Below are positions 1,227 through 11,430 of a DNA stretch of 64,000 nucleotides, one piece after another. The first letter of the stretch is position 1. Each line of letters starts with the position of its first letter. The notes beneath the pieces were generated by a model, which was not told where the DNA came from, searched no databases, and was given only the letters and a program-made list of their open reading frames with translations. This stretch comes from an uncultured Anaerolineae bacterium (GTDB lineage: Bacteria > Chloroflexota > Anaerolineae > J036 > Brachytrichaceae): assembly GCA_938034415.1 (NCBI GenBank), contig CALHLE010000009.1:1-64000 (forward strand). The letters are read 5' to 3'. The position numbers and the translations under genes were made by a program.

Positions 1227-1907
1227 TCACCGCTTCACCCAACCGAGCAGGCCCAGGGCGATGGCCGCAAGCAGCGCCAGCGCGGCCAACAGGCGCGTCG
1301 GCGTGATCGGCCCGGCGGCCGGCGGCGCGGGCGCGGCGACGGTTGCCGCCGGTTCGCTCGCCGCCTGAAAGGAACGCTGCGCCGCATCCGCGCCCGCGGA
1401 TTCAACTTCGGCCTCCGGCGCGACGGCGGCTTGAATCGGGGCGGCCGGCAACGCCTCACCCTGCATCGGCTGCGCCGCCGGCGCCATCTCGGCCGGCGGT
1501 TCAGCGGGCGTCGCCAACGCGCGCTGCGGCGGCATCTCCAGAGCGGGCGCAGCCGCCGGTGCGACTGCGGGCATTGCGGCGAAGGGCGCGGGGCGCGTCA
1601 ACTCGGATGCCGCCAGCGCCACGAAGAGCGCCGTCGCGGCCAGCGAGCCGAGCCGCAAGAGCCATGGGGAGAACAAAGGCCGTCGCCGCTCGGGCGCGGC
1701 CGGCTTTCGGCCGACGTCGAGCGGCAAGATGAAGTTGCGCGGCGGTTGCAGCGCCGGCAACGCGCGCGATTCTCGGACGAGCAGACGCGTCGCGGCGACG
1801 CGGCGCCGCAGCGGCGCGTCCCGCGCCATCCGCGCTTCGAGCGCAGCGCGCTCGGCCTCGCTCAGCCGGCCATCCACGTAAGCGGAGATCAGCTCGTCCT
1901 CGGTCAT
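1227..1907 (-). CDS. Putative transmembrane anti-sigma factor
   Basis: 226 residues. The N-terminus (MTEDELISAYVDGRLSEAER) has the look of an anti-sigma helical domain with the DGRLSEAE segment common in these proteins. A first hydrophobic segment lies near residues 85-105, followed by a long Ala/Pro-rich linker and a second hydrophobic segment at the extreme C-terminus (LLAALALLAAIALGLLGW). The usual HxxxCxxC zinc motif is not present. It starts 11 bases after the stop of an ECF sigma gene, the normal pairing. Function as its antagonist is inferred from position and architecture; the signal it senses is unknown. Confidence 0.7.
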   Translation of the reverse strand: MTEDELISAYVDGRLSEAERAALEARMARDAPLRRRVAATRLLVRESRALPALQPPRNFILPLDVGRKPAAPERRRPLFSPWLLRLGSLAATALFVALAASELTRPAPFAAMPAVAPAAAPALEMPPQRALATPAEPPAEMAPAAQPMQGEALPAAPIQAAVAPEAEVESAGADAAQRSFQAASEPAATVAAPAPPAAGPITPTRLLAALALLAAIALGLLGWVKR

Positions 1908-1918
1908 TGCCCTTCCCC

Positions 1919-2509
1919 TTACTGACGAAACTCGTCGGGCAGCAGTTCCTCGTGGGCTAACAAAGCGTCGCGCAGCTTGGCGCGCGCCCGGCTCAGCCGG
2001 CTTTTCACCGTGCCGAGCGATACCTGCATCGCCTCGGCGATTTCTTCGTAGCTCAAGCCTTGAACGTCGGACAGCACGAACGTGATGCGTTGATCGGGCG
2101 GCAATTGCAGCGCCGCGCGCGCGATGAAGCGGCGCAGGTCGCTGCGCTCGGCGGCGTGCAAGGGATCCTCGTCGTCGGCGGGTAACACATCGGCCAGGCT
2201 GCGCCCCTCGTCGGCCTCGTCGCCGCCCTCCAGCGAGGCGGCCGGCCGGCGTCGCGCGTAGCGCAGCGCGTCGTAGCAGGCGTTGGTCACGATGCGCAGC
2301 AGCCAGCTCTTGAACGAACCGCCGCGATAGCTTTTGATGTGGGTGAACGCCGCGAGGAATGCCTCTTGCGTCGCGTCGGCGGCCGCAGCCGGCTCGCCCA
2401 GGATGCGATAGGCGACGTTATAAACCTGCGACTGGTAGGCCAACACCAGTTGGTTGAATGAGGCTACATCGCCGCGCTGCGCCGCGCGGATCAACCCCGC
2501 TTCATCCAT
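1919..2509 (-). CDS. ECF-family RNA polymerase sigma factor
   Basis: 196 residues from the ATG at 2509 ([20 protein letters not shown]); a longer reading frame exists but its extra residues are the aroQ gene in another frame. Region 2 is clear ([20 protein letters not shown], then [19 protein letters not shown]) and region 4 carries the helix-turn-helix [25 protein letters not shown]. No region 3 or 1.1, as expected for ECF factors. The start overlaps the end of aroQ by 8 bases, so the two are probably translationally coupled, which places a stress-type sigma factor inside an amino acid biosynthesis operon. Confidence 0.92.
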
Positions 2510-3044
2510 CGGCCCGATTGTGCGGCTGCTCGGCCAGGATGTCCAGCAGGGCGGCCAGCCCCAGCGTGTAGCTGCGCCAGCCGAAGCCGGCAATCACGCC
2601 GACGGCCACCGGCGAGATGAACGAGTGGTGTCGGAAAGGCTCGCGCTTGTGCACGTTCGAGAGGTGCACTTCGACGCAGGGCAGGGCGACCGCGCTAATT
2701 GCGTCGCGCAGGGCGACGCTGGTGTGCGTCAGGCCGCCGGGGTTGATCAGGATGCCATGCGCCCACGCGCGCGCGTCGTGGATGGCGTCAATCAAGGCGC
2801 CCTCGTGGTTCGACTGCGCGATGCGCAGCGCGGCGTTGCGCTGCGCGGCCAGCTCGCGCAAGCGCCGGTTGATGTCCTCCAGCGTGACGCGGCCGTACAC
2901 GTCCGGCTCGCGCAGGCCGAGCAAATTCAGGTTGGGGCCGTGAAGCACCAGAACCGCCCATTGTGCACCGGCCATCGAGGAACCGGCGTCGCCCGCCGGC
3001 TGCGGCTCGGCCGGGCGCTGCGACCTATCCGCTGCGTTCTCCAT
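2502..3044 (-). CDS. aroQ: Type II 3-dehydroquinate dehydratase
   Basis: Shikimate step 3: dehydration of 3-dehydroquinate to 3-dehydroshikimate. Hallmarks are [21 protein letters not shown] at the N-terminus (catalytic Tyr in VYG), [15 protein letters not shown], the [19 protein letters not shown] segment, and [19 protein letters not shown] with the catalytic His region. I chose the ATG at 3044 because GGAGG sits 5 bases upstream; this leaves about 25 residues before the family core. Alternatives are 3065, an ATG overlapping the aroB stop, and 2975, closest to the usual family length near 150. The gene lies directly behind the aroK-aroB fusion and overlaps the sigma gene. Confidence 0.95.
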
Positions 3045-3061
3045 GTGGGCCTCCGGTTTTC

Positions 3062-4717
3062 TCATCTCAGCGATGCCAGCGCGTCTTGCGCCATTGTCTC
3101 CGGCACGGCGTCGCACACGAAGGCGTCGCCCGGCGCGCGCAGCAGGACGAAGCGCAGCTTGCCGGCGCGCTTCTTCTTGTCGCTCAGCATGTAGCGCCAC
3201 ACCGCGTCCGGCGCAAACGCCAGGCCGTCGAGCGCATCGCGCGCGTCGTCGAGCGCGGTGGGCAGGCCGACGCTGCGCAGCAGGCCGATCACTTCGGCCA
3301 CCAGCGCGCCCTCGCACACCCCCATCGCATGTGAGAGCCGCGCAGCGCAGACCAGGCCCAGCGCCACCGCCTCGCCGTGCTTCAGCCGAAAGCCGCTCCA
3401 CGCCTCCAGGCCGTGGCCGAAAGTGTGGCCCAGGTTCAGCAGCGCGCGCCGGCCGCGCTCGAACGGGTCGGCCTGCACAATCGCGCGCTTGAGCAGGATG
3501 GCGTCTGCCAGCGCATTGAGCAGCGCTTGGCCGCGCCCGTCGCTCAGCGCGCCGCTTGTCGCCGCCTCGCGCAGCCGCACATAGGCCGCGCCGCCGCTGA
3601 GCAGGGCGGCTTTGACGATTTCGGCCAGGCCGCAGCGCAGCTCGCGCGGCGGCAGCGAAGCCAGCGCGCTCAGGTCGGCCACGACCAAATCGGGCTGCTT
3701 GAACGCGCCGACCAGGTTTTTGCCGAAGTCGGTGTCCACGCCGACCTTGCCGCCGATGCTGGAATCGGCCATGGCCAGCAGCGAGGTGGGCACTTGGACG
3801 AGCGGCACGCCGCGCAGGAAGGTGGCCGAGGCGAAGCCGGCCGTATCGCCCACCACGCCGCCGCCCAGCGCGATGACGGCGCTCGCGCGCTCCATGCCGC
3901 GCGCGCTGAAGGCGCGATACATCGCCTCGACGCTGGCCAGCGTCTTGTGCGCCTCGCCGGCAGGCATGACGTGCAGGAAGCCATCCAGGCCGGCGCGCGC
4001 CAGCGCGCGCAGCGCGCGCTCGCCGTAGTGCGCGGCGACGTTTGCATCGCTCACCACGGCGAACGGCGGCGTCCAGCCGCGCCCGGCCAGCATGAACCCC
4101 AGCGCATCCAGCACGCCCTCGCCGATGACGATGTCGTAGCGCGCGCCGGCTTCGGGCACGTCCACCGCGATCCGGGCGCGCTCGCGCCGGTAGGCTTCGC
4201 ACGCCAGCGCGGCGACTTCATCGGGCGTGCGTTGAGAGGTATCTATGGCGTAGTGCAACTGGGCGTATTTGGTCGCGCGCTCGCGCAAGAGCTGTGTGAC
4301 GCGCGCGGTCACGTCGCCGCCGCGCAGCATCGGGCGCTCGGCGGCGGCCGCCTCGCCGCCCACGCGCTGCACGATGACCTCCGGCGTCGCCGTGAGGCAC
4401 ACGCCGACGCCGCTGCTGAGCAGCGCCGCGCGGTTGTCGTCGTCCACGATCATGCCGCCGCCGGTGGCGATGACGCAGTTCCGGCGCGCGCTCAGCTCGG
4501 CGACGAGTTCGCGCTCGCGGGCGCGAAAGTAGCCCTCGCCGCGCGAGGCGAAGATCGCCGGAATCGGCATACCCTCGCGTCGGCTGATCTCCTCGTCGGC
4601 GTCTATGAAGGCCAGCCCAAGGCGCTGCGCGCAGAGCCGGCCGACGGTGCTTTTGCCCGTGCCCATGAAGCCGGCCAGGATGAGGTTGCGAGGATGGGCG
4701 GCGATGTCTTCACGCAT
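3062..4717 (-). CDS. aroKB: Bifunctional shikimate kinase / 3-dehydroquinate synthase fusion
   Basis: 551 residues with two catalytic domains in one frame. Residues 1-170 are shikimate kinase: P-loop GFMGTGKST at 16-24, the acidic pair in FIDADEEI, and the shikimate-binding ATGGGMI near 84-90. Residues about 185-551 are 3-dehydroquinate synthase, with [10 protein letters not shown], the NAD-contacting [35 protein letters not shown], and metal-ligand segments E...H...H in LAEIVKAAL and [12 protein letters not shown]. Steps 2 and 5 of the pathway are therefore covalently linked although not consecutive. Such fusions are known in several bacterial lineages. It follows aroC by 9 bases and precedes aroQ. 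Confidence 0.96.
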
Positions 4718-4726
4718 CTTTGGCGA

Positions 4727-5911
4727 TCACTCATAGCCGAAGCGCCAGGGCAGGGCGTCCATCGGCAGAGCGTCCAGCCGCAGCCGACGCAGCGCTGCGA
4801 AGCGCGGGCGCATCTCGTCCAGCGAGTCGCCGCCCAGCTTCTCGACGAGCGCATCGGCCAACACGAAGCACACCATCGCCTCGATGATCGGGACGGCGCG
4901 CGGCACCTGGCAGAAGTCGCTGCGCTCGTATTTCGTCTTGACCATCCGGCCGGTGGCTAAGTCCACCGAGTCGAGCGGGTTGAGCGTGGTGGCGATGGGC
5001 TTGAGCGCGGCGCGCGCGACGATCGGCGCGCCGTTGGTGATGCCGCCCTCCAGCCCGCCGGCGTGGTTGGTGCGCTGGCAGATCGCGCCGTCGGCGGCGT
5101 AGAGCTGGTCTTGGGCCTGGGTGCCGAGCCGACGCGCCTCGGCGAAGCCGTCGCCGATCTCGACGCCCTTGACGGCGTGCACGCTCATCACCGCCTGCGC
5201 CAATCGTGCGCTCAGGCGACGATCCCAATGCACATGGCTGCCGAGGCCGGGCGGCACATGCAGCGCGACCACCTCGACGACGCCGCCCAGGGTGTCCTTC
5301 GCGGCGATGACCTCGGCGATGCGGGCGCGCATGCGCTCGGCGGTGGGAGGGTGGTAGCAGCGCACGTCGCTGGCCTCGGCCTGCGCGAAGCGCTGTAGGT
5401 AGGTCTCGGCGTCCACCGCAGAGGCATGGTCGGGCGTCTCCACTTCGCCGATGCTGAGCACGTAGCCGCCGACGACGATGCCGAACTGTCGCAGCAGCGC
5501 GCGACAGGCGGCACCGACGGCGACGCGCACGGCCGTCTCGCGCGCCGAGGCGCGCTCCAGCGCTAGGCGCAGCTCGCGATAGCCGTATTTCACTGCGCCG
5601 GTCAGGTCGGCGTGGCCGGGGCGCGGGATGGTCATCGGCTCAATGTCGCGGTCTTTCCATTTGGCGTGGTCGAGGTTCTCGATGACGAAGGCGATCGGGC
5701 CGCCGGTAGTCTTGCCGGCCATCACGCCGGCGGTGATGCGCGCGTGGTCGCGCTCGATCTTCATCCGTCCGCCGCTGCCGTAGCCTTGTTGGCGGCGGGC
5801 CAAGTCGCGGTCAATGTCCTCGGAGCACAGCGGCACGCCGGCGGGCATGCCTTCGAGGATGGCGGTCAGCGATGGGCCGTGCGATTCGCCGGCGGTGAGA
5901 AACCTAAGCAT
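4727..5911 (-). CDS. aroC: Chorismate synthase
   Basis: 394 residues, within the family range. Catalyses EPSP to chorismate with reduced FMN. Signature segments visible are MLRFLTAGESHGPSL at the start, RRQQGYGSGGRMKIE, RPGHADLTGAVKYGYRE, RASARETAVRVAVGAACR, HWDRRLSARLAQAVMSVHAVKGVEIG and the EGGITNGAPIVARAALKPI region. The ATG overlaps the end of aroE by 8 bases, which fits translational coupling. Confidence 0.97.
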   Translation of the reverse strand: MLRFLTAGESHGPSLTAILEGMPAGVPLCSEDIDRDLARRQQGYGSGGRMKIERDHARITAGVMAGKTTGGPIAFVIENLDHAKWKDRDIEPMTIPRPGHADLTGAVKYGYRELRLALERASARETAVRVAVGAACRALLRQFGIVVGGYVLSIGEVETPDHASAVDAETYLQRFAQAEASDVRCYHPPTAERMRARIAEVIAAKDTLGGVVEVVALHVPPGLGSHVHWDRRLSARLAQAVMSVHAVKGVEIGDGFAEARRLGTQAQDQLYAADGAICQRTNHAGGLEGGITNGAPIVARAALKPIATTLNPLDSVDLATGRMVKTKYERSDFCQVPRAVPIIEAMVCFVLADALVEKLGGDSLDEMRPRFAALRRLRLDALPMDALPWRFGYE

Positions 5912-6743
5912 CTTGAAGCGCCTCCCGCATGATAGCCGAAACGCGCGCGGCCGGCACGCCCGTCCACCGCTCGAACGCCGCCGCGCCTTGCTCGGCCAGC
6001 ATGCCGATGCCGCCGATGGCGCGCGCGCCGGCGGCCTCGGCCTGCCGCATCAACTTCGTCACACGCGGCGTGTATACCAGGTCGTAGAGCGTGGCGCCGG
6101 CCGGGAAGGGCGCGCCGTCCGGCCATGGCGATTCGTCCTCGCGCGGCCACATGCCGGCGGATGTGCAGTTGACGATCAAGTGCACCGCTTGACAGGCCGG
6201 ATCCATCGGCGACGCCACGACGGCGCATCGCTCGCGCGTGGCGATCGAATGGGCCAGGTCGTCCAGCAGATGCTGGGCACGGGCCGGCGCGCGGTTGTAT
6301 ACCCACACGCGCGCCCCCCGCAGCGCCAGCGCATAGACGACCGCCCGCGCCGAACCGCCGGCGCCCAGCACCAGCGCCCGCGTGCCGGCGTGGACATCCA
6401 CGCCGTGAAAGGCCAGGTCGGCCAGGAAGCCGATCCAGTCGGTGTTATCGCCCAGCAGGGCGCCCCTGCGCTTGAAGATGGTGTTCACCGCGCCGATGGC
6501 GCGCGCGTGTGCGCTCACCTCGTCGAGGTAGGGCATCACCGCCTGTTTGTGCGGGATGGTCACGTTGCAGCCGGCGACGTCCTCGCGCTCGCCCAACTCG
6601 CGCATGCGCGCCGGCAGGGCTTCCGGCGGCGTGTCCCACAATTCGTAGCGCCAGCCGCTCAACCCGATGTGGGCGAACGCTGTGCGCTGCATCTGCGGGC
6701 TTTTGCTGTGCGCAACCGGATGGCCGATCAAACCAACGATCAT
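5904..6743 (-). CDS. aroE: Shikimate dehydrogenase
   Basis: 279 residues from the ATG at 6743 (MIVGLIGHPVAHSKSPQMQR); the frame is open further upstream but that part does not match the family. Reduces 3-dehydroshikimate with NADPH. Motifs: GHPVAHSKSP for substrate binding, NVTIPHKQAVMPYLDE with the catalytic Lys, GDNTDWIGFLADL, and the nucleotide-binding ALVLGAGGSARAVVYAL followed by VYNRAPARA. It sits 29 bases behind aroA. Confidence 0.96.
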   Translation of the reverse strand: MIVGLIGHPVAHSKSPQMQRTAFAHIGLSGWRYELWDTPPEALPARMRELGEREDVAGCNVTIPHKQAVMPYLDEVSAHARAIGAVNTIFKRRGALLGDNTDWIGFLADLAFHGVDVHAGTRALVLGAGGSARAVVYALALRGARVWVYNRAPARAQHLLDDLAHSIATRERCAVVASPMDPACQAVHLIVNCTSAGMWPREDESPWPDGAPFPAGATLYDLVYTPRVTKLMRQAEAAGARAIGGIGMLAEQGAAAFERWTGVPAARVSAIMREALQDA

Positions 6744-6772
6744 GGCGTAGCTCGCATGGGATGGCGAGTAGG

Positions 6773-8095
6773 TCAGCGGTCGGCGACCAGCGACGCTAGG
6801 TCGCGAAAGAACGCCGGGTAGGTCTTGGCCACGCACTCCGCGCCGAGGATTTTCGTCTCGCCTTCGGCGCGCAACGCGGCGATGGCCAGCGCCATCGCCA
6901 CGCGGTGATCGCCCAGACCGTCCACCACTGCGCCGCGCAGGCGGGCCGGCCCTTCGACGACGAAGCCATCTGCCGTCGCTTCAATCCGCGCGCCCAATTT
7001 GCGCAGCTCGCCGACGAACCCTTCTAGCCGGTTGCTCTCCTTCACGCGCAGTTCCTCGGCGTCGCGGACGATGGTGACGCCGTGCGCCTGCGTCGCGGCC
7101 ACGGCGAAGATGGGGAACTCGTCAATCATGCGCGGCGTCAGCGCGCCGCCTACTTCGACGCCGCGCAACTCGCCACCGACGACTTCCACATCGCCCACCG
7201 GCTCACCGCCTTCCTCGCGCAGGTCGGCCATATAGATTGTCGCCCCCATCGCCCGCAGCGCGTCAAGCAGGCCGGTGCGCGTCGGATTCAAGCCGACTTC
7301 GACGAGGCGAAGCCGCGCGCCGGGCGTGATCGCCGCCGCGACGATGAAGAATGCTGCCGAGGAGAAATCCGCCGGCACCAGCATGTCCAGCGCGCGCAGC
7401 GGCCTTTGCGGCGGATGCGCGGTGATGCGGCCGGCCTCCCCTTCGGCTTCTACGGTGACTTCGACGCCCATGGCGCGCAGCATGCGCTCGGTGTGGTCGC
7501 GCGTCGGCGCCGGCTCGCGAACGGTCACCGGCCCATCCGCATATAGGCCGGCCAAGAGCAGCGCGCTCTTCACTTGCGCGCTGGCGATGGGCATATCGTA
7601 GGTCAGCCCGTGCAATGGGCGATGCGCGGCGCGGATGACGAGCGGCGCGTGGCCGTCTGTGTCTTCGATCTGTGCGCCCATCCGGCGCAGCGGATCGGTG
7701 ACGCGGCGCATTGGGCGGCGGCGCAGTTGTTCGCTGCCGTCTAACACCGCGTCGAACGCCTGCCCGGCCAAGCAGCCGGCCAGCAGCCGCATCGTCGTGC
7801 CGGATGAGTTGCAGAACAGCGGCTGGTCGGGCGCGCGCAGGCCGCGCAATCCCCGGCCGGCGATGCGCAGGCCCGCCGAGTCGCAGCCGCTGCCGAGTGG
7901 GGCCGCCGGCGCGCCAAGCGCAGCCATGCAGCGCAGCGCGGCGTCCGCGTCGTCGCTCGCCAACGGCTCGCGAATGCGGCTGACGCCCTCGGCGACGCCG
8001 GCCAGGATGGCGGCCCGCACGGTGATGCTGCGGTCGCTCGGCGCGCGCAGCACGCCACGCAGCGCGTGCGTCGGTTGGACGGTCTCGATGGTCAT
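6773..8095 (-). CDS. aroA: 3-phosphoshikimate 1-carboxyvinyltransferase (EPSP synthase)
   Basis: 440 residues starting MTIETVQPTHALRGVLRAPS. The frame is open for another 270 codons upstream, but that part is tyrA in another phase. EPSP synthase signs: APSDRSITVRAAILAGVAEG (the family usually has K where T is seen in RSITVRA), LFCNSSGTTMRLLAG, LDGSEQLRRRPMRR, SAQVKSALLLAGLYADG, and LRVKESNRLEGFVGELRKLG near the C-terminus. The start overlaps the tyrA stop as ATGA. Confidence 0.96.
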   Translation of the reverse strand: MTIETVQPTHALRGVLRAPSDRSITVRAAILAGVAEGVSRIREPLASDDADAALRCMAALGAPAAPLGSGCDSAGLRIAGRGLRGLRAPDQPLFCNSSGTTMRLLAGCLAGQAFDAVLDGSEQLRRRPMRRVTDPLRRMGAQIEDTDGHAPLVIRAAHRPLHGLTYDMPIASAQVKSALLLAGLYADGPVTVREPAPTRDHTERMLRAMGVEVTVEAEGEAGRITAHPPQRPLRALDMLVPADFSSAAFFIVAAAITPGARLRLVEVGLNPTRTGLLDALRAMGATIYMADLREEGGEPVGDVEVVGGELRGVEVGGALTPRMIDEFPIFAVAATQAHGVTIVRDAEELRVKESNRLEGFVGELRKLGARIEATADGFVVEGPARLRGAVVDGLGDHRVAMALAIAALRAEGETKILGAECVAKTYPAFFRDLASLVADR

Positions 8096-8943
8096 CGGAA
8101 GTGTGTTCTGCGCGCCTGCGCCGCAGCCGCGAGGAAGGCGCGCAGGCCTTCCTCGTCGCGACGCTCCAGCAGCGCAGTGAATTGATCGAGCGTGAACTGG
8201 AAGTCGCGCACGGCACCGAGCACGGCGTCGGCGTTCGTCAGCAAAATGTCCAGCCACATGGTGACATCGCTGGCAGCCACGCGCGAGGTGTCGCGAAAGC
8301 CGCCGGCCATCACCTGCCAGACCTCCGGCCGGTTCAGGCTGAACTGGTCGGTGGTCGTCACCAGGGCGACGGCTAGCGCGTAGGGCAGGTGGCTGGCGAA
8401 GGCTAATAATGCGTCGTGGTGTTCCGCGCCGATTTCGCGCGGCGCGGCGCCGACGCGCTCCGCCAGGTCGCGGACGACGGCCAGCGCCTCGTCGTCGCTG
8501 CGTTGGGTGCGGGTGAGCAACCAAGGCGCGCCCTGATACAGCGATGCGTCGGCGGCATCTATGCCGGCAGTCTCTTTGCCGCACATCGGATGCGAGCCGA
8601 CGGCGCGCAGGTGGGGTGGCAGCGCGTCCATGGCGCGGACGACTTCGGTCTTGGTGCTGCCCATGTCGGTGATGATCGCGCCGGGCCGGCAGATGTCGGC
8701 CAGTTGCCCGATCTGAGCGATGAGCGCGCGCACCGGCGTGCACAGCACGACCACATCGGCCTCGCCGGCGCGGCTCAGCTCCGACGAGACGACATCGGCG
8801 ATGTCGCGCGCCTGCGCCTTGCGCAGCGTCTCGGCGCTGCGCGAGATGCCGATCAGCCGGCCGGCATAGCCGTTGGCGCGCAGCGCCAGGGCGAACGAGG
8901 CGCCCATCAGCCCGAGGCCGACGATGCAAATTGTGCCTGTCAC
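8092..8943 (-). CDS. tyrA: Prephenate (or arogenate) dehydrogenase
   Basis: 283 residues from a GTG at 8943; there is no ATG near the N-terminal Rossmann motif and this GTG begins VTGTICIVGLGLMGASFALA directly on it. Further motifs are ITDMGSTKTEV, VGSHPMCGKETAGIDAA with the catalytic His, and SHLPYALAVAL. It makes hydroxyphenylpyruvate or arogenate from prephenate (or tyrosine from arogenate); the sequence does not decide. No ACT domain is attached, so feedback control of this step, if any, is not through that domain. The stop overlaps the aroA start. Confidence 0.93.
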   Translation of the reverse strand: MTGTICIVGLGLMGASFALALRANGYAGRLIGISRSAETLRKAQARDIADVVSSELSRAGEADVVVLCTPVRALIAQIGQLADICRPGAIITDMGSTKTEVVRAMDALPPHLRAVGSHPMCGKETAGIDAADASLYQGAPWLLTRTQRSDDEALAVVRDLAERVGAAPREIGAEHHDALLAFASHLPYALAVALVTTTDQFSLNRPEVWQVMAGGFRDTSRVAASDVTMWLDILLTNADAVLGAVRDFQFTLDQFTALLERRDEEGLRAFLAAAAQARRTHFR

Positions 8944-8966
8944 GTTGGGTTGAGGGACGCGCGAGA

Positions 8967-9992
<1,026 letters not shown>

Positions 9993-10014
9993 GCTTCCTA
10001 CCATTTGCGTTTAT

Positions 10015-10086
10015 CGCGGGATGAATCCTGCGTTACTGTCGCGGGATGAATCCCGCGTTACGGCCGCGGGATGAATCCCGCATTAC
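10015..10086 (-). repeat. Three palindromic repeats at 25-base period between aroG and aroF
   Basis: Three 22-base copies start at 10015, 10040 and 10065, separated by 3-base spacers. The consensus is CGCGGGATGAATCCCGCG plus TTAC; each unit is nearly self-complementary, with arms CGCGGGAT and ATCCCGCG. Copy 1 has one arm mismatch and copy 3 ends in CATTAC. They lie between two co-directional genes of one operon, so the transcript would carry three successive hairpins. Palindromic content and 3-base spacers argue against CRISPR. Confidence 0.9.
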
Positions 10087-10094
10087 CGGTTGGG

Positions 10095-11204
10095 CTACAG
10101 GGCTGCCACCTTGCCGTCCATGTGCTCAGCGAGATGCAGGGACGTCGCGCGGCTGCGGCGCCGGATGCGCACGGCTTCGGCCAAGCGGTCAAGCACGCGC
10201 TCGGTGTCTTCCCAGCCGATGCAAGCGTCGGTGATGCTCTTGCCGTATTCCAGCGGGCAGCCCGGCGTCAGGTCTTGGCGGCCTTCGCACAGGTTCGACT
10301 CCAGCATCACGCCGGCAATCGCATGCTCGCCCGCCTCGATCTGCTGGGCTACGTCCTCGGCGACCACAAGCTGCTGCTCATGCTTCTTGTTGCTGTTGCC
10401 GTGCGAGCAGTCAATCATGAGGCGCGGCGACAGGCCGTCCCGCAACAGCGCCTCCGCCGTGGCGCGCACGCTGGCGTGGTCGTAATTGGGCGCCTTGCCG
10501 CCGCGCAGCACAATGTGACAGTCGTCGTTGCCGGCGGTGTGCACGATGGCGCTGATGCCGCCTTTGGTGACCGATAGAAAATGGTGCGGCTGGCGGGCGG
10601 CTTTGATCGCGTCAATGGCGATCTTGATGTTGCCGTCGGTGCCGTTCTTGAAGCCGACCGGACATGACAGGCCGCTGGCCAGCTCGCGATGCACCTGCGA
10701 CTCGGTCGTGCGCGCGCCGATGGCGCCCCAGGCGATCAGGTCGGCGACATACTGAGGCGAGATGGTGTCGAGGTACTCGGTGGCCGCCGGCAGCCCCAAC
10801 TCGCTGATGTCCAACAGCAGCTTGCGCGCCATCCGCAGCCCCTTGTTAATGCGGAACGAGCCGTCGAGGTCGGGGTCGTTAATCAATCCTTTCCAGCCCA
10901 CCGTGGTGCGCGGCTTTTCAAAGTACACGCGCATGATGATCTCTAGCGCGTCCCGGCAGCGATCCCGGACGGGCTTCAGCCGCGTCGCGTACTCAAACGC
11001 CGCCTGCACGTCGTGCACGCTGCACGGCCCAACGACGACGAAGACGCGGTCGTCGTCGCCGTGCAAGATGCGGTGTATGGCGCGGCGCGTCTCGTAGACT
11101 AGCTTCGCCACCTCCGACGTGATCGGGAACTCCCGCATCAGATGCGCCGGCGGCGCCAGCTCTTTGATCTCGCGGATACGAACATCATCAGTTTGATAAT
11201 TCAT
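10095..11204 (-). CDS. aroG: 3-deoxy-7-phosphoheptulonate synthase, type I-alpha
   Basis: 369 residues, close to the enterobacterial AroF/G/H class: IREIKELAPPAHL at the N-terminus, VVVGPCSVHDVQAAFEYA, FEKPRTTVGWKGLINDPDLDGSF, IGARTTESQVHRELASGLS, PVGFKNGTDGNIKIAIDA, MIDCSHGNSNKKHE and VMLESNLCEGRQDL. It catalyses the same entry reaction as aroF, so two isoenzymes of different subclass are co-transcribed. First structural gene of the operon, it starts about 25 bases after the attenuator terminator. The label aroG denotes the subclass; the inhibitor specificity (Phe, Tyr or Trp) is not read here. Confidence 0.96.
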   Translation of the reverse strand: MNYQTDDVRIREIKELAPPAHLMREFPITSEVAKLVYETRRAIHRILHGDDDRVFVVVGPCSVHDVQAAFEYATRLKPVRDRCRDALEIIMRVYFEKPRTTVGWKGLINDPDLDGSFRINKGLRMARKLLLDISELGLPAATEYLDTISPQYVADLIAWGAIGARTTESQVHRELASGLSCPVGFKNGTDGNIKIAIDAIKAARQPHHFLSVTKGGISAIVHTAGNDDCHIVLRGGKAPNYDHASVRATAEALLRDGLSPRLMIDCSHGNSNKKHEQQLVVAEDVAQQIEAGEHAIAGVMLESNLCEGRQDLTPGCPLEYGKSITDACIGWEDTERVLDRLAEAVRIRRRSRATSLHLAEHMDGKVAAL

Positions 11205-11230
11205 CGTGTCATCCCCGGTATAAAAATCAA

Positions 11231-11258
11231 AAGCGCGGAGCTTACCAGCTCCGCGCTT
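11231..11258 (-). terminator. Intrinsic terminator/attenuator before aroG
   Basis: Perfect 12-bp stem AAGCGCGGAGCT / AGCTCCGCGCTT with a 4-base loop. On the minus strand it is followed by TTTTGATTTTTA, the U-rich tail of a Rho-independent terminator. It ends about 25 bases before the aroG ATG and after the aromatic leader peptide, so it can only act as a regulated (attenuator) terminator for the operon. The 7 bases GGTAAGC in its loop and 3' arm are complementary to GCTTACC inside the leader (about 11318-11324), a candidate alternative pairing. Confidence 0.85.
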
Positions 11259-11276
11259 CTACCTGACCTGCACTGA

Positions 11277-11362
11277 CTACTTTTGGTTACCTGCCGGTCG
11301 TCTCGAACCCGCGCGCCGGTAAGCCGCCTTTGCCCACGGCAAAGTAGCTAAACCAAAAGTAG
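11277..11362 (-). promoter_or_regulatory. Structured leader RNA: 12-bp stem enclosing two hairpins
   Basis: On the minus-strand transcript CTACTTTTGGTT (11362-11351) is perfectly complementary to AACCAAAAGTAG (11288-11277). Inside lie a short hairpin TTTGCC/GGCAAA (about 11343-11329) and a second with arms TTACCGG and CCGGCAGGTAA. The 5' arm of the outer stem is made of the aromatic codons of the leader peptide, and the 3' arm begins at the peptide stop codon. A ribosome stalled on those codons would therefore free the 3' arm, whose CAAAAG could pair with CTTTTG of the terminator tail. The base pairing is seen; the switching mechanism is inferred. Confidence 0.75.
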
Positions 11363-11385
11363 CCCCAAAAGCGCACGGATACCAT
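11287..11385 (-). CDS. Aromatic-rich leader peptide of the aro operon
   Basis: A 32-codon reading frame, ATG at 11385 and TAA at 11287-11289. It begins MVSVR and continues FWGYFWFSYF, so 8 of 10 consecutive residues are Phe, Trp or Tyr (4 F, 2 W, 2 Y); another Phe occurs at residue 27. It lies between a sigma70 promoter and a terminator that precedes the operon for Phe, Tyr and Trp precursors. This is the classical layout of ribosome-mediated attenuation as in trp and pheA leaders, here able to sense all three aromatic amino acids. Weak point: the predicted 5' UTR is only about 8-10 bases and has no Shine-Dalgarno, so translation would have to be nearly leaderless. The aromatic run also overlaps a stem arm, so structure may constrain these codons. 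Confidence 0.8.
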   Translation of the reverse strand: MVSVRFWGYFWFSYFAVGKGGLPARGFETTGR

Positions 11386-11401
11386 GTGCGAGATGGCCAA
11401 T

Positions 11402-11430
11402 ATGGTAAGCCATGAGGCGCAACTTGTCAA
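11402..11430 (-). promoter_or_regulatory. Sigma70-type promoter of the aro operon leader
   Basis: On the minus strand a perfect -35 TTGACA (11430-11425), a 17-base spacer and a -10 TACCAT (11407-11402, four of six matches). Transcription would begin near 11395, about 10 bases before the leader peptide ATG. Confidence 0.65.

Follow-up and report, generated by a model that had tools for sequence, protein, structure and literature searches.

A short leader peptide gene rich in aromatic codons, followed by an intrinsic terminator, stands before the shikimate operon of an uncultured member of the Anaerolineae (a class of the Chloroflexota), and it is very probable that the two form a ribosome-mediated transcription attenuator tying the whole operon to the supply of charged aromatic tRNA, a conclusion reached without transcript, ribosome, or expression data. 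The element lies in a window of 64,000 nucleotides (the whole stretch of DNA that was analyzed), which belongs to an assembly of 2.83 Mb. Sequence comparison establishes its conservation, reading frame, alternative pairings with their covariation, and operon content, and thereby supports the main interpretation of an earlier sequence-only reading of this DNA. The parts of the locus are as follows.

2502 to 10004, minus strand: aroF (I-beta DAHP synthase), tyrA, aroA, aroE, aroC, an aroK-aroB fusion, and aroQ (NCBIfam)
10095 to 11204, minus strand: aroG, DAHP synthase class I-alpha (NCBIfam NF006723, 585 bits, above cut-off)
11215 to 11227, minus strand: U-rich terminator tail, AUUUUUA... (sequence and scan)
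11228 to 11261, minus strand: intrinsic terminator hairpin, regions 3 and 4 (scan, folding, and covariation)
11275 to 11289, minus strand: post-stop strand UAACCAAAAGUAGUC, partner of the aromatic codons, which closes the leader domain (pairing across leaders)
11287 to 11385, minus strand: leader peptide ORF of 32 codons with a near-leaderless start (translation and orthologues)
11304 to 11329, minus strand: region 2, the antiterminator 5' strand AGGCGGCUUACCGGCGCGCGGGUUCG, codons GGLPARGF (pairing with the terminator)
11328 to 11344, minus strand: hairpin A, CUUUGCC-GUG-GGCAAAG, over the last Tyr/Phe codons and the codons that follow (covariation)
11341 to 11370, minus strand: region 1, the regulatory codons F W G Y F W F S Y F (translation, survey, and masked folding)
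11402 to 11430, minus strand: promoter, with -35 TTGACA at 11430-11425, a 17-nt spacer, and -10 TACCAT at 11407-11402 (scan, 10/12 match)

Translation of the ORF at 11385-11287 gives MVSVRFWGYFWFSYFAVGKGGLPARGFETTGR*, in which FWGYFWFSYF contributes eight aromatic residues, in agreement with the 32-codon leader claimed by the sequence-only reading. The scan also recovered the TTGACA/17/TACCAT promoter that had been placed upstream and the terminator that had been placed between the leader and aroG, a hairpin of 15 pairs (11261-11228) followed by ATTTTTA, whose loop UGGUAA doubles as the antiterminator 3' strand. Since the upstream gene (11670, plus strand) is divergent, this terminator cannot belong to it. 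The stem proposed between the aromatic codons and a strand starting at the leader stop codon is likewise present (GGCTACTTTTGGTT : AACCAAAAGTAGTC). The locus meets the criteria for an attenuator that a leader with codons for the pathway products, whose translation is here inferred, precede the operon and that a terminator precede the first gene.

NCBIfam matches and gene order bear out the claim of a chorismate-pathway operon downstream, the shikimate genes following the leader in the order aroG-aroF-tyrA-aroA-aroE-aroC-aroKB-aroQ. The usual order in Anaerolineae, taken from loci with 11-14 kb read (some operons are shorter), is leader, aroH, (pheA), aroF, tyrA, aroA, aroE, aroC, aroK, aroB, and aroQ, with aroH, a chorismate mutase gene, as the first operon gene in most members of the class. 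Searching 396 Anaerolineae genomes with PF07736 finds the aroH chorismate mutase in 268 of them and yields no match in the window's genus, where aroG occupies the usual place of aroH. The window aroG encodes a proteobacterial-type I-alpha DAHP synthase, rare in Anaerolineae (19/396 genomes), and after a close Anaerolineae relative its best matches are mostly from Proteobacteria (window 10095-11204, relatives L083-L094), which suggests gene replacement beneath a retained leader. One genome (G013; L094, L122) carries aroG without a leader of its own because an aroH with the leader sits immediately upstream, an arrangement that is possibly an intermediate of the aroH-to-aroG replacement. Two DAHP synthase types (I-alpha and I-beta) adjoin within the one operon (window 8967-11204). 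After the aro operon, on the same strand, lies an ECF sigma factor gene (1919-2593), and the ORF downstream of it resembles an anti-sigma partner (window 1227-2593).

The leader is present in all aroG relatives with a readable upstream region, in the same genus as well as in genera g5 and g7 (including G021), and their alignment, a check suggested by the sequence-only reading, shows the aromatic run kept through synonymous and aromatic-to-aromatic changes. A covariance model built from ten leaders of aroG relatives finds the element in 26 of 28 family genomes and recovers one genome outside its training set (G012) at E 5e-7; in family genomes with a leaderless aroG or without aroG, the element precedes an aroH-type chorismate mutase gene or aroF. 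Low-scoring matches of the model in other genomes (G059, G290, G053, G236, G329, G096, G247, G130, G230) were rejected as chance terminators or tRNA-like sequences. A survey of the 330 nt upstream of 127 aroH genes, from a spread of families that is not a random sample, finds a nine-residue open-frame window with at least five F/W/Y on the coding strand in 117 and with at least six in 108, compared with 7 and 1 on the reverse strand and 5 and 2 in shuffles; the aromatic run of the leader is far beyond chance. When the aroH and family leaders are pooled, 142 of 149 have an intrinsic terminator 11-66 nt past the stop codon (median about 25). Among 40 aroH genes from Chloroflexota families outside Anaerolineae, clear leaders occur in f71 (3/3), f107, f81, and f110 and in one member each of f74 and f94; most of the other families in this set have no leader, and thus provide a negative control for the survey method. 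In family f38 (L128, L130, L331), the aromatic run comes at the end of a conserved ORF that is longer, perhaps 70 residues (...LLDGPTAAEMLLTNNLRHEWRGFSFGNFWFGYYFG...), indicating that some leaders are long peptides.

The promoter form TTGACA-N16/17-TAnnnT occurs in 24 of 26 family members, with the -10 element ending 12-20 nt upstream of the ATG, and from this conserved spacing the mRNA is predicted to be nearly leaderless and to lack a Shine-Dalgarno sequence. Conservation thus answers the caveat raised over the short 5' UTR without a Shine-Dalgarno sequence: the near-leaderless start is shared among relatives and is not an annotation defect. The transcript start itself is inferred to lie near 11395, about 10 nt upstream of the leader ATG.

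The compensatory hairpin changes that the sequence-only reading had named as a further check are found in hairpin A and in the terminator. Among 26 sequences, hairpin A pairs change from GC to AU in 10 and from CG to GC in 4, with CUUUGCC:GGCAAAG replaced in relatives by CUUUAC:GUAAAG, CUUUAGC:GCUAAAG, or CUUUGGC:GCCAAAG. Over hairpin A and the terminator, two-sided changes affect 10 of 18 pairs, a count equalled in 0 of 500 shuffles; since the alignment was fitted to these helices, the count leans towards them. The antiterminator pairing was not included in the covariance model, and its core has two-sided changes in 4 of 8 pairs. Region 2 of the window pairs with the terminator 5' arm and loop at -29.1 kcal/mol, and across 132 non-redundant leaders region 2 pairs better with its own terminator (-23.4 kcal/mol) than with those of others (-18.3 kcal/mol; z -18, with 0 of 10,000 permutations as good). 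The GCTTACC:GGTAAGC pairing singled out by the sequence-only reading proves to be central to a genuine antiterminator, which covaries across the class and which, as attenuation requires, uses terminator sequence and is mutually exclusive with the terminator. Within the leader, the aromatic strand has two partners, namely region 2 (z -6.6) and the stretch that begins at the stop codon (z -4.8 over 139 leaders; -3.8 outside the family). Region 2 or its neighbor also serves as partner for the ORF 5' end (z -6.9). The stem between aromatic codons and post-stop strand recurs in distant genomes (e.g., G099 UUCGCCUAUUAC:GUAAUAGGCGAA and G187 UUCGCUUACUUU:AAAGUAAGCGAA), ruling out its restriction to part of the genus. 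The proposed pairing of a freed CAAAAG, part of the post-stop strand, with the terminator tail was rejected, since neither the 3' arm nor the U tail of the terminator gave any signal as its partner (z +1.3 over 140 leaders). The permutation tests ignore relatedness, and all z values are therefore upper bounds.

The response of these pairings to a ribosome was predicted by folding the nascent leader up to the terminator loop with the ribosome footprint masked. For the window leader, the expected number of antiterminator pairs is 17 when any one of the eight aromatic codons occupies the A site, 0 without a ribosome, 0 for a ribosome beyond codon 18 and as far as codon 29, and 4-6 for one at the stop codon, and the outcome holds for four footprint sizes. 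Across 140 leaders, the mean number of antiterminator pairs is 10.7 for an aromatic stall, 0.6 at later codons, 5.4 at the stop codon, and 6.0 without a ribosome (stall versus stop, p 1.7e-16). Two E. coli leaders used as controls behave as their known mechanism predicts: in trpL, the first Trp codon gives 7 pairs, the second 13, and the stop codon 2, and in pheL most Phe codons give 13 pairs, the last two give 10 and 6, and the stop codon gives 0. The comparison of folding with and without a stalled ribosome, as the sequence-only reading had recommended, thus favors the switch in silico only, a stall on any aromatic codon giving the antiterminator. A further requirement, that a stall free the antiterminator strand and that completed translation mostly not do so, is also met in silico, with some relatives ambiguous (e.g., in G015 the antiterminator is predicted even at the stop codon). 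In full-length equilibrium folds, the terminator is always favored in the window leader and usually so in other complete leaders, implying that the switch must be kinetic. Without a ribosome, much of the antiterminator is predicted in 5 of 11 closely related leaders; relatives differ in this respect, and the untranslated state is therefore uncertain.

The tryptophan branch in the same genome is arranged differently. Upstream of trpE (G000:C19, L347 1109-1370) lies a T-box-like leader with a terminator (L347 1352-1383); its match to the Rfam T-box scores 77.9 bits (E 2e-17), short of the 93 bits that Rfam sets for gathering, and its specifier region reads GAAUGGAC, in which UGG is, on the authors' reading, the apparent specifier. 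A Trp-rich leader was looked for upstream of trpE in this genome and not found, and no leader was found upstream of pheA. The trp branch seems to be served by a separate tRNA sensor, with the leader acting on the common pathway, and the role of the leader Trp codons remains undecided.

The proposed mechanism, of which the transcript start, translation, stalling, read-through, and the choice among the three amino acids are all inferred, would run as follows. Transcription would begin about 10 nt 5' of the leader ATG, and a ribosome would load on the near-leaderless start. When Phe, Tyr, or (in the window's lineage) Trp tRNA is short, the ribosome would stall in FWGYFWFSYF and cover region 1 and the ORF 5' strand, leaving region 2 free to pair with the emerging terminator 5' arm and loop, and RNA polymerase would read into aroG. 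When aromatic tRNAs are plentiful, the ribosome would pass region 2 and release, after which both region 2 and the post-stop strand would be bound by the aromatic strand; the terminator would form, and transcription would stop before aroG.

The aromatic run could in principle have arisen merely from the demands of RNA stems or from a T-rich composition, with no sensor function, and the aromatic codons do fall within paired strands. This explanation merits almost no credence, as only one frame is aromatic: across 142 runs, aromatic residues make up 79% of frame 0, against 17% and 19% of the two alternative frames and 31% of shuffles of the same composition, and frame 0 is the most aromatic in 142/142. 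Both synonyms of the Phe and Tyr codons are used (TTT 363, TTC 99, TAT 215, TAC 202), an in-frame ATG precedes 121 of the 142 runs, reverse strands and shuffles lack the run, and the residues stay aromatic though their stem partners change. By its codons, the leader is selected as a peptide, its translation being an inference. A main role in trans, either for an sRNA that the terminator would end or for the aromatic peptide itself, with attenuation as a side effect, is conceivable since the element would yield a small RNA of ~170 nt and a 32-residue peptide, and a trans role has been described for peTrpL of Sinorhizobium meliloti trpL (PMC7298713). It is nevertheless highly improbable, given that the element always precedes aromatic pathway genes, whichever gene comes first (aroG, aroH, or aroF), that the leader-terminator pairing in cis is conserved, and that residue order drifts among families while aromatic content is constant.

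A narrower signal for the same device, in which only Phe (or Phe and Tyr) shortage operates the switch and the Trp codons are passengers or extend the stall zone, is a possibility that can be held only tentatively. Among 142 leaders, 69 contain F, W, and Y, 68 contain F and Y without W, and 5 are of other composition; with Phe and Tyr both present in 137, these two form the core, to which about half of the leaders add Trp. The first gene in most Anaerolineae is a chorismate mutase, serving only Phe and Tyr; the trp branch of the window's genome has its own T-box-like element; and AroR of C. glutamicum contains Phe-Tyr-Phe and answers to Phe limitation and not to Tyr limitation (Neshat et al. 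2014, as cited by PMC11802643). However, at least one Trp codon is retained in every leader read in the window's genus, g7, and g5, a stall at either Trp codon gives the same 17 antiterminator pairs in masked folding, and the chorismate that the operon supplies feeds all three amino acids. The claim that the leader carries all three aromatics suits the window's family (21/25 leaders) better than the class, where Trp codons occur in only about half; sensing of the amino acids is inferred in either case. Returning to the attenuator as proposed, its fullest version is about evenly balanced between acceptance and doubt: a leader that combines the aminoacyl-tRNA pools of all three aromatics in a logical OR and thereby sets expression of the entire shikimate pathway, that is ancestral to Anaerolineae and some other Chloroflexota, and that survived the aroH-to-aroG swap, with the trp branch read separately by a T-box.

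Ribosome-mediated attenuation is a known kind of control; of an aromatic version spread through a whole class, the sources searched seem to give no description. The leader matched no Rfam family at the gathering score and no T-box at the gathering or a relaxed threshold, and none of 10 further loci, most of them bearing the leader, matched Rfam; identity of the aro leader as a riboswitch or T-box was rejected, being without Rfam support. As in E. coli pheL-pheA and trpL-trpE, strands 1:2, a 2:3 antiterminator, and a 3:4 terminator can be assigned, and the response to masked folding is the same, whereas pheL and trpL are each built around one amino acid and have a standard RBS. Region 2 lies after the stop codon in pheL, around and after it in trpL, and inside the ORF in the window leader. 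Branched-chain and threonine leaders (ilvL, thrL) combine in one leader the codons for several end products of a shared pathway; they differ from the window leader in pathway and amino acids. The nearest precedent is C. glutamicum aroR, which leads the aroF operon and resembles the window leader as an aromatic-codon leader acting by ribosome stalling before a DAHP synthase operon; it is actinobacterial and has Phe-Tyr-Phe only, with no Trp codons mentioned in the review PMC11802643. Acholeplasma uORFC-13-1, known from 24 sequences from Acholeplasma and environmental samples, is similar in placing a uORF with Phe codon(s), promoter elements, and a terminator before the DAHP synthase gene aroF, and differs in having an RBS and at least one Phe codon without being aromatic-rich as described (PMC8632094). 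An attenuator sensing Tyr-tRNA was proposed for E. coli aroF-tyrA (Camakaris 1980, cited in PMC2659441), which would likewise attenuate a DAHP synthase operon; it is hypothetical, concerns a single amino acid, and belongs to different bacteria. The present element is undescribed in the literature searched, and a 2010 attenuator study (Lopatovskaya et al., cited in PMC4833913) could hold related predictions.

Described attenuators are mostly proteobacterial, actinobacterial, or firmicute, and the aromatic ones are tuned to a single amino acid. A deep-branching, mostly uncultured class seems to route its whole chorismate supply via a single aromatic-sensing leader, and this cis element appears to have outlived a gene it formerly controlled. 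The leader gives a functional annotation to small ORFs missed by gene callers, and its hundreds of natural variants with and without Trp codons may allow insight into which codons of the mixed run are sensed.
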